Of a stretch of 64,000 bases of DNA, positions 34,727 to 62,442 are shown one piece after another. The stretch lies in NCBI GenBank assembly GCA_020284085.1, contig JACEVL010000480.1, forward strand, positions 1,313,779 through 1,377,778. Reading direction: 5' to 3'. The notes below the pieces were generated by a model that made no database searches, was not told the DNA's origin, and saw only the letters and a program-made list of their open reading frames with translations. Every line of letters starts with the position of its first letter. Position 1 is the stretch's first letter. This DNA comes from Aporrectodea caliginosa. Lineage: Eukaryota > Annelida > Clitellata > Crassiclitellata > Lumbricidae. Both the position numbers and the translations under genes were made by a program.

Positions 34727-34812
34727 TTAGACGCACACGTAAATTCTGAAGATCCAAAGGCGAATTCTCCAGAAACAGACGAGCCTTTTTACACGCTGAG
34801 GACCATCCGCAT
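34727..34812 (-). CDS. Copy A last exon: furin site and predicted mature peptide
   Basis: After the split codon the exon reads DADGPQRVKR, then LVCFWRIRLWIFRIYVCV and a stop. The peptide alternates hydrophobic and cationic residues (three Arg), has no acidic residue and can close a hairpin through its two Cys, like arenicin. Exon 5 supplies the first base of the first codon (G from 35409). If exon 5 were instead read through its donor, it would stop after five codons. Confidence 0.75.
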
Positions 34813-60800: not shown

Positions 60801-62442
60801 ATCACCTGATAAAGGACGTAAACAACAGTAAGAGTAATCTTCTGTTACACAAGGAAAAGAGGAGTCCTTTGACGTAGGCCTAACTGTGAAAGACGGCGAT
60901 GGGTTTAAAAACCGAGCCGTTAATCAATCAATCAATCAATCAATCAATCAATCAATCAATCAATCAATCAATCAATCAATCAATCAATCAATCAATCAAT
61001 CAATCAATCAATCAATCAATCAATCAATCAATCAATCAATCAATCAATCAATCAATCAATCAATCAATCAATCAATCAATCAATCAATCAATCAATCAAT
61101 CAATCAATCAATCAATCAATCAATCAATCAATCAATTTCGTTTATTCCCCTTAATTACCGCGTGCTGTTCATTTTGGCGACGGTCATAACCGCAACATTC
61201 ATTGATGCTGTTCTCCATGATCTACCAAAGACCAAGAATGCAATCGAAGGTTTCAGTGAGCTTCTTGGTGCTATTCATCTTTCGATTAAACCATTTGTTG
61301 AACAAGTCTAGTTTTCATTCGTCGTTGTAGAACATTAGTAGACGAATCTACAGAGACACAGCCGCCCGGATCAGAGCCATCGGATATTACTGTTCTACTA
61401 ATGTTCTAAAACGATGATTGACAACTAGACTTGAAGATTTAAGTTATGTGCGATATCACGAAGATGATCCAATAGTGGACGATCCTTGTTAATTGGCGAC
61501 GATGGCTTTGATTCGGTCTTTGTAGATTCGTCGGTTCGGAGGAGGTTGTTGGCCAGAGATATACTGTTCAATCTTCATCTCGTTCATGCTCTGTTCTTTC
61601 TGTATCTGTTTTTTCTGTAGGCCCTCGATGAGCTTCCAAATGGAGGGATGATTGGCACCAAGAAGCTCACTGAACCTCAGTGCCATCCTTCGATTGCATT
61701 CTTGGTCTTTGGTAGATTTGGCATCATAACATTACCACAATGAATGTTGCGGTTTATGTGATCGTCGCCAAAATGAACAGCACGTGGTAATTATAACGGC
61801 GCGGTTTTCTGCGCGTGGTAATAGAATGATATATACCGCTAGAGAATGCATGGCTCATAATCTTTCCACCGACATTGTGCTTCTGTCCTGACTGGGATTT
61901 GAAAGACTATCGTTCATCTCGCTATCAGTCAACCCTACAGATAAGCGGATCTAGAACGTAACTGCAGCTTTCAGCAGAAGCATAGCTACAGCCTACCGTA
62001 ATGTTTAGCAACCAAACGACACGTACATGTAAGGAGGAGATCCATCCTTACGTGTTACTTCGGTGCAGCCAAAGGATTGGCTGACGGTCGCTGTTTCAGA
62101 ATTGATACTATTTTCTAACACGAAATTAAATCAGTTTGAGTATTTTACTACAAGGATTCAACAGCATAATCTGCAGTTCGTCTGCTCCAACGACTTTCCA
62201 CTTCTTCGTGGTGTACTGTACATAATATTAAAGACCCGGATTGCTTTATATTGGAACCATCCTTGTAATTGGAGACTATATCGTGAATAATAAATTTAAC
62301 TCACATAACTTACTTTATTATTATCGGCCAATATAATATTTAAACTGTACATTGTAAAGTAAATTCAGTAGAGTTGTCTTACCTCGGATAAACTGACGAT
62401 AGCAATTGGCGAATCTGTTGACTTCTTGTCTGTTTCAGACAT
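54718..62442 (-). CDS. BRICHOS antimicrobial-peptide-type precursor, copy B
   Basis: Six minus-strand exons: 62442-62383, 60805-60653, 59852-59730, 59010-58888, 57956-57821 and 54812-54718 (TGA), giving 229 aa. Exon lengths and phases are identical to copy A except the last. The order is a short cytosolic tail, KTAKSRKTKK, one membrane span (37-62), a BRICHOS domain (about 72-198; WIIDDFNR, GTNCYVTPLNR, CNGISTYWVYPKC), QRSKR (furin site after Arg208) and a 21-residue C-terminal peptide with Cys7 and Cys20. Acceptors and donors are canonical. Protein differences from copy A by exon are 6/20, 1/51, 2/41, 8/41 and 10/45; the last exon is largely different. No stop or frameshift is seen, so the copy looks functional. 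Antimicrobial activity is inferred from the architecture. Confidence 0.85.
54870..55180 (+). repeat. Dispersed repeat R1, copy
   Basis: It contains 'aactcaaaatttctaaagct', 'ggcaccagtttattcacgag' and 'gattgccagagagaccagag', then a purine-rich part ('cttgaagaggtgagatttca'). It matches 2240-2560 over its length. It lies in intron 5 of BRICHOS copy B. Confidence 0.65.
56400..57540 (+). pseudogene. Non-LTR reverse transcriptase, degraded
   Basis: The + strand gives APPQGSVVGPLLFNVYTSPI (RT motif B region) near 56480. It then reads TPARMTASQLCLNPSKQNSS, SAIIFHENLTSADHITQLSR, SKLDYCNSLSYNTDSSQRKR, and VTKTPKHHHIS before a degraded 'ESLRWLKVPKRIHDNIVSLT'. The catalytic Y-A-D-D is lost and frames are broken. 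It is CR1/L2-like and lies in intron 5 of BRICHOS copy B. Confidence 0.82.
58050..58184. repeat. (AAG)n and (GAT)n microsatellite
   Basis: (AAG)n at about 58050-58082 passes into (GAT)n to 58184. It directly abuts the SINE on its right and is probably that SINE's tail. Confidence 0.95.
58185..58455 (-). mobile_element. SINE family 2, best copy
   Basis: Down from 58455 the minus strand has a tRNA-like head ('gatagtggatagcgcagtgc', 'aaagttctgggtttcaaatt'), a body and a (TCA)n tail. It matches 1372-1600 and 40190-40300. It lies in intron 4 of BRICHOS copy B. Confidence 0.6.
59290..59580. repeat. (AAT)n microsatellite cluster
   Basis: (AAT)n runs at 59290-59346, 59422-59458 and 59521-59580, with 'aataat/attatt' inversions to 59690. 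They sit where copy A also has (TTA)n arrays, between BRICHOS exons 4 and 3. Confidence 0.95.
59969..60523. mobile_element. Unclassified 555-bp insertion with empty site in copy A
   Basis: Direct repeats GGCCTAT flank it (59962-59968 and 60524-60530). Copy A reads straight through at 39296-39320 (ttaggcctaattatgacagt), giving an empty-site control. It begins TGTGACGAACCC, as some LTRs do, but no matching CA end is seen. No domain is recognised. Confidence 0.6.
60922..61136. repeat. (AATC)n tetranucleotide array, about 54 units
   Basis: 215 bp of uninterrupted AATC. The long Ile-Asn-Gln-Ser frames across it are composition artefacts. It lies in intron 1 of BRICHOS copy B, just upstream of exon 2. 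Confidence 0.98.
61150..61800. mobile_element. Inverted pair of Mutator-like transposase C-terminal fragments
   Basis: On the minus strand 61800-61489 reads FHFGDDHINRNIHCGNVMM, then LPKTKNAIEG, FSELLGANHPSIWKLIEGLQ, then IEQYISGQQPPPNRRIYKDR. This is the tail commonly seen in MULE-type transposases. A shorter, more decayed copy of the same part runs on the + strand at 61153-61300 (DLPKTKNAIEGFSELLGAIH). The two face each other, leaving a central spacer with its own 'agaacattagtag / ctactaatgttct' inversion. Confidence 0.72.

Follow-up and report, generated by a model that had tools for sequence, protein, structure and literature searches.

Tandem genes for membrane-anchored BRICHOS precursors with divergent two-cysteine tail peptides in the annelid Aporrectodea caliginosa

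Gene structure

A stretch of 64,000 nucleotides from the lumbricid annelid Aporrectodea caliginosa (GenBank assembly GCA_020284085.1, contig JACEVL010000480.1, positions 1,313,779 to 1,377,778; hereafter the window, to which all coordinates refer) carries on its minus strand two tandem genes, A and B, for membrane-anchored BRICHOS precursors. Spliced translation of six exons gives 229 residues in each case with one common layout, i.e. a basic N-terminus, one membrane span, a BRICHOS domain, an R-x-K-R site and a tail with two cysteine residues. An initial annotation of this DNA had proposed these features and was borne out by splicing: the six minus-strand exons of each gene with matching phases, the single span behind a basic stretch, the R-x-K-R site followed by a two-cysteine peptide of 18 (A) or 21 (B) residues and a stop codon, and the last junctions (35409 to 34812 in A, 57821 to 54812 in B), which were exact.

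In gene A, exon 1 (43132..43194) encodes the N-terminus (residues 1-21), which differs at residues 12 and 15 only from that of P0001, the closest protein found in the searches described below; exon 2 (39935..40087, residues 22-72) encodes the basic stretch and the membrane span, as indicated by hydropathy and by a helix at 36-67 in a structural model of P0001; exon 3 (39006..39128, residues 73-113) encodes a linker and, according to the same model, the first BRICHOS strands; exon 4 (37437..37559) continues the BRICHOS domain with the conserved Cys 129, and exon 5 (35409..35550) ends it with the conserved Cys 185. Exon 6 (34727..34812) holds the R-V-K-R site (34795-34784), the 18-residue peptide LVCFWRIRLWIFRIYVCV with its two cysteines (34730..34783) and the stop, all of them the same in P0001. 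Gene B follows the same plan, exons 1 (62383..62442) and 3 (59730..59852) being placed by the spliced gene model, exon 2 (60653..60805) carrying the basic stretch and, by hydropathy, the membrane span, and exons 4 (58888..59010) and 5 (57821..57956) encoding the BRICHOS domain and its end, respectively. Its exon 6 (54718..54812), which is without a transcript-level match, contains the R-S-K-R site (54795-54784), the 21-residue peptide GIIASRCIFFFIWIFGIGVCR with two cysteines (54721..54783), which resembles the tail of another homologue, P0004, and the stop.

Every intron of the two genes is of the GT-AG type, with phases 0, 0, 0, 0 and 1 in both; from the first to the fifth they measure 3044, 806, 1446, 1886 and 596 bases in A, and 1577, 800, 719, 931 and 3008 bases in B. 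The duplication also takes in the stretch upstream of exon 1: when the 150 bases that precede each ATG are aligned and gapped columns dropped, 112 of 120 positions agree. The proximal upstream region of gene B (62443..62592, minus strand) contains a TATA-like box, TATAAATAG, at 62591-62583; its counterpart in gene A (43360..43368, minus strand) is altered to GATAAATAG.

Evidence that the genes are real and spliced as modelled

Three protein searches yielded the homologues P0001-P0116, of which P0001-P0113 were aligned. The search with gene A returned 35 proteins, and the best of them, P0001, is 99% identical to the gene A product across all 229 residues, with three differences (residues 12, 15 and 42) and no change in the peptide or around any of the five junctions. 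The contig that encodes P0001 is 1,245 bases long, compared with a genomic span of 8.5 kb for gene A. This contig, probably a transcript, is too short to hold the introns, which speaks for the modelled last exon of gene A and for each of its five junctions; P0001 may come from a sibling species or from another allele of gene A. The initial annotation had named transcripts with another last exon as evidence that would speak against it, and for gene A none appeared, P0001 being identical through exon 6. With gene B, the best match was again P0001 (80%), and no B transcript was present in that protein collection. The P0001 match, the 38 further homologues found beyond it in the protein searches with A and B, and the splice sites that both copies have preserved despite their divergence place the genes beyond chance.

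The terminal motif was rejected as evidence in its own right: R-x-[KR]-R followed by 12-40 residues with at least two cysteines and a stop has five matches in the window (two on the plus and three on the minus strand), as compared with a mean of 2.2 matches per strand in 40 Markov sequences. The other three matches, at 10758 (plus), 18492 (plus) and 45376 (minus), were set aside as candidates for alternative peptide exons, being without the G-P-Q-R-x-K-R context of exon 6.

BRICHOS domain, anchor and topology

Both proteins match the BRICHOS profile PF04089 (A, E 1.6e-8, 35.0 bits; B, E 4.1e-8, 33.8 bits) above the Pfam gathering score of 25 bits, so that this check, which the initial annotation had suggested, came out in its favour; all 113 aligned homologues match the profile at E <=0.001. 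BRICHOS domains are described, in the part of the source available to us, as strictly conserving one aspartate and two cysteines (PMC6265681), and D110, C129 and C185 are invariant both in the 113 aligned sequences and in a smaller alignment of 39 rows that includes gene B.

Windows of 19 residues with a hydropathy above 1.6 start no earlier than residue 34-35, and the first helix of the P0001 model starts at residue 36; judged from these positions, and not by a signal-peptide predictor, A and B lack a cleaved N-terminal signal peptide. The 15 residues preceding the span carry a charge of +5 and the 15 following it +1, a distribution from which the basic N-terminus would be expected to lie in the cytoplasm, with the single helix acting as an anchor.

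Structural relatives are distant. A search of Protein Data Bank (PDB) sequences with gene A and both peptides found no relative, and a Foldseek search of the model against the PDB gave no match at E <=0.001, those listed being taken as chance beta sheets. The profile of the 113 homologues had one match among PDB sequences, Bri2 (8rnu, E 0.051), and the best VIA-align row of the model was the BRICHOS domain of surfactant protein C (SP-C; 2yad), the only BRICHOS structure among the matches listed; the Pfam SP-C propeptide is matched by 8 of the 113 homologues. Bri2/ITM2B and the SP-C precursor are type II membrane BRICHOS precursors, as A and B probably are, although the similarity is remote, and Bri2 also has a C-terminal peptide released by furin. 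We know of no recurrent duplication with tail replacement among the vertebrate type II BRICHOS proteins.

Uneven divergence between the two copies

From exon 1 to exon 6, A and B are 86.7, 96.7, 98.4, 82.1, 89.7 and 59.3% identical, and the synonymous divergence of exons 1-5 is 0.17, 0.12, 0.00, 0.66 and 0.10. Exon 4 is exceptional in this respect (Fisher p about 8e-5, with counts rounded), which suggests a mosaic history, possibly through recombination or gene conversion.

When the alignment of exon 6 was scored against shuffled sequences, the part before the cut gave a z of 7.0 and the 150 bases past the stop a z of 8.8, whereas the mature segment gave 0.84: the mature segments align no better than chance, and both flanks align better than chance. 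It seems that the tail peptide has evolved more rapidly than its flanking DNA. A motif common to both tails, W-I-F-x-I-x-V-C, has a local score that 14 of 2,000 shuffles attain; the second half of the mature segments is therefore still homologous, while the first half has diverged or been replaced. Two other measures were discarded. The ratio of nonsynonymous to synonymous divergence (dN/dS) is unusable for the mature segment, as dS is saturated (2.7), and alignment scores against shuffles were used in its place; simple identity misleads because gaps inflate it (36 of 47 ungapped columns in the mature segment, with a shuffled mean of 79%, and 128 of 151 downstream, with 78%), hence the score test.

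An alternative is that gene A alone is functional, gene B being a decaying or silent duplicate. Such a state would agree with the missing B transcript in the collection searched, with a dN about equal to dS in exon 5 (0.122 and 0.102) and similarly in exon 1 (0.141 and 0.167), and with a large intron 5 that contains a reverse-transcriptase remnant. Gene B has, however, no stop or frameshift in its reading frame, its splice sites are all intact and dN is 0.009 in exon 2 and 0.020 in exon 3; moreover, B has an intact TATA-like box where that of A is altered, W-I-F-x-I-x-V-C is kept, with synonymous differences in three of its six shared codons, and the tail resembles that of P0004. Decay of gene B is, on balance, improbable.

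The tail peptides and their homologues

In gene A the sequence RVKR precedes LVCFWRIRLWIFRIYVCV, and in gene B RSKR precedes GIIASRCIFFFIWIFGIGVCR; the net charge (K+R-D-E) of the tails is +3 in A (read through the P0001 tail) and +2 in B, each with two cysteines. In shuffling tests, no shuffle out of 2,000 did as well as the match between the tails of gene B and P0004, and the other 11 of 13 tail comparisons were not clearly above chance, including that of A with P0004 (280 of 2,000 shuffles). The inner cysteine pair of P0004 aligns with two arginines in A and with phenylalanine and glycine in B, so that A and B look like single-pair members of a group in which further cysteines are common.

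Among the homologues, tails were analysed in 112 sequences, P0001 included and P0112 dropped, as it has no letters behind the site. A [RK]-x-[RK]-R site lies within 70 residues past the BRICHOS domain in 103 of them, four have a dibasic pair only and five have neither, their whole stretch being counted as tail; the stricter R-x-[RK]-R occurs anywhere in those 70 residues in 90. Tails have up to 35 residues in 29 homologues, 36-60 in 11, 61-90 in 54 and more in 18, with 0-12 cysteines; their net charge is at least +2 in 45, between -1 and +1 in 42 and -2 or lower in 25. In a midpoint-rooted tree of the span and BRICHOS domain, from which the short P0034 was left out, A, P0001 and B group together (support 0.996) inside a 12-member clade (support 0.965), the tails of which range from 0 to 8 cysteines and from -4 to +3 in charge. 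For short tails, precursor identities of 30-50% and 50-60% (219 and 99 pairs) go with mean tail identities of 0.25 and 0.22, as compared with 0.25 and 0.21 after shuffling; with precursor identities above 60% (50, 33 and 5 pairs) mean tail identity is higher than in shuffles, at 0.32, 0.46 and 0.41, the shuffled values being 0.24-0.27.

Two groups of tails are of separate note. Those of P0010, P0012, P0019 and P0042 are 39-61% aromatic, mostly tyrosine, with 2-8 cysteines, and are unlike classical antimicrobial peptides. In part of P0014-P0030 and in many of P0040-P0113 the tail, about 60-100 residues long, has a common G-C-C core with A/S-C after it, and most of these tails contain 8-12 cysteines; they form a cysteine-rich module behind the same cut site.

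Comparison with known annelid precursors

The published systems are considered here as they appear in the available portions of the cited texts. Echiuran precursors (UuBRI-21, UcBRI-21 and BvBRI-21, from Urechis and Bonellia) are transmembrane proteins without a signal peptide (PMC9410094). In Heteromastus filiformis, Panteleev and colleagues described 13 precursors that belong to nine structural families, of which two lack cysteine; five of the 13 (HfBRI-20, -23, -25, -28 and -54) are of the transmembrane type, and HfBRI-75 and -91 have no pronounced cationic property (PMC10745061). A and B resemble the echiuran and Heteromastus precursors in having a short N-terminus, one membrane helix, a BRICHOS domain, a site of the Lys/Arg-Arg type and a C-terminal peptide, which in the published precursors has 20-28 residues except in HfBRI-54, the comparison being one of descriptions and not of sequence identity. 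For UuBRI-21 the masses pointed to two disulfides, whereas A and B, with two cysteines, can form at most one.

As to gene structure, the preproalvinellacin genes of Alvinella have five introns, a BRICHOS propiece, the peptide in the last exon, tandem copies and recombination between copies (PMC5431198), and A and B are like them in all these respects, recombination included if the reading of exon 4 holds; the alvinellacin precursors differ in having a signal peptide where A and B have a membrane anchor. Papot and colleagues found in Alvinella an almost invariant peptide and a diversified BRICHOS domain (PMC5431198). A and B display the reverse, with exons 2 and 3 at 96.7 and 98.4% identity and the mature segment alignment at chance level. 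Arenicin-1 and -2 are 21-residue peptides with one disulfide, located at the C-terminus of a BRICHOS precursor that begins with a signal sequence (PMC9410094, PMC13001179); they are like the A and B peptides in lying C-terminal to BRICHOS and in having one cysteine pair, and their precursors differ by the signal sequence. A and B are, therefore, new genes of a known design and not a new kind of system. Neither peptide was found in its exact form in the full texts searched, most subscription papers lying outside that search.

Proposed function and alternatives

With a probability that we put at roughly 70%, A and B are tandem duplicates encoding type II proproteins from which a furin-type cut releases a hairpin peptide that disrupts bacterial membranes. 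The precursor would be inserted with its N-terminus inside, after which the lumenal BRICHOS domain, as in others of its family, may act as an intramolecular chaperone and keep the hydrophobic, strand-prone tail from aggregating; one disulfide would then close the peptide (C3-C17 in A, C7-C20 in B), and a furin-like convertase would cut after R-V-K-R or R-S-K-R and free the 18- or 21-residue product. The closed peptide could act as an arenicin-like single-disulfide hairpin, less convincingly so in B. Arenicin-1 and -2 are more basic than both peptides.

Three points weigh against this function: the gene B peptide has only two basic residues and is weakly cationic, its tail passes a simple membrane-helix threshold (hydropathy of up to 2.2 in 19-residue windows with start positions 208-211), and tail net charge is +1 or lower in 67 of the 112 homologues. 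On these grounds the label of host-defence peptide can be given to A and B with moderate confidence only, whereas the other elements of the initial reading as two new host-defence peptide genes (anchored BRICHOS precursors, a furin-type site, a tandem and intact arrangement, a published annelid design) stand. The hydropathy of the B tail could also mean that it, and perhaps that of A, is a second membrane helix and not a released peptide; but the gene A tail falls below the same threshold, R-x-K-R directly precedes the tail in both genes with a similar [RK]-x-[RK]-R site in 37 of the 39 rows of the smaller alignment, and many homologous tails are polar, all of which makes a second helix highly improbable.

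Precursors of this type could, instead, carry tails with structural, adhesive, signalling or anti-predator roles, in need of BRICHOS for their beta-branched, aromatic and cysteine-rich content. Tails such as those of P0010 (31 residues, 48% aromatic, 8 cysteines, net charge 0), P0009 (net -4, 8 cysteines) and P0042 (61% aromatic), the spread of cysteines and charge within the 12-member clade of A and B, and the extreme hydrophobicity of the B tail would fit such roles. On the other side, both peptides have a net positive charge and a single cysteine pair, as in arenicin-1 and -2, and UuBRI-21, HfBRI-25 and HfBRI-28, from transmembrane-type precursors, kill bacteria (PMC9410094, PMC10745061; available portions), a likeness by which the A and B peptides may be bactericidal as well. 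A non-antimicrobial role is thus rather unlikely, and release of a membrane-disrupting hairpin is preferred.

A broader and tentative idea, which we hold to be somewhat less probable than its opposite, is that the membrane-anchored BRICHOS cassette of worms serves as an all-purpose chaperone platform on which a hypervariable peptide 'warhead' is carried. Duplicates would keep the anchor, the chaperone and the cut site and rapidly swap only the tail (17 to about 100 residues), Tyr/Cys-rich, neutral and acidic peptides included, A and B being caught in the act, with mature coding DNA diverging faster than the adjoining untranslated DNA. Frog skin peptides and cone-snail venoms likewise combine a conserved precursor with a hypervariable mature peptide. 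The breadth of BRICHOS cargo is itself already known; the additions made here are the extent of that breadth and a tandem pair seen in genomic DNA. A and B contribute new, very hydrophobic two-cysteine BRICHOS peptides, and they show exon by exon how genes of the transmembrane subtype are laid out in a genome, whereas the published studies, in their available portions, work from transcriptomes (PMC9410094, PMC10745061). Divergence focused on the peptide, opposite to that of alvinellacin, offers a test of when the cargo and when the chaperone is the target of selection, and the 113 aligned homologues, many with non-classical tails, make the range of BRICHOS clients testable.

Surroundings in the window

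Scans of the window for tRNA genes and Rfam families found nothing. Exons of RPB2, the second-largest subunit of RNA polymerase II, lie on the plus strand at 9841-30414, with three Pfam domain matches (Rpb2_1, 9841-10134; Rpb2_6, 28292-28606; Rpb2_7, 30130-30414); being on the plus strand at lower coordinates, they place the A/B pair tail to tail with a housekeeping gene. The reverse-transcriptase-like remnant in intron 5 of gene B (56378..56833, plus strand) matches RVT_1 with E 2e-4 and 21.6 bits, below the Pfam cut-off of 29.6, and is likely to be part of the reason why this intron has 3,008 bases as compared with 596 in gene A. A tetranucleotide repeat (ATTG when read on the minus strand) forms a long array in intron 1 of gene B (60925-61136), and intron 3 of both genes contains runs of three-base repeats.
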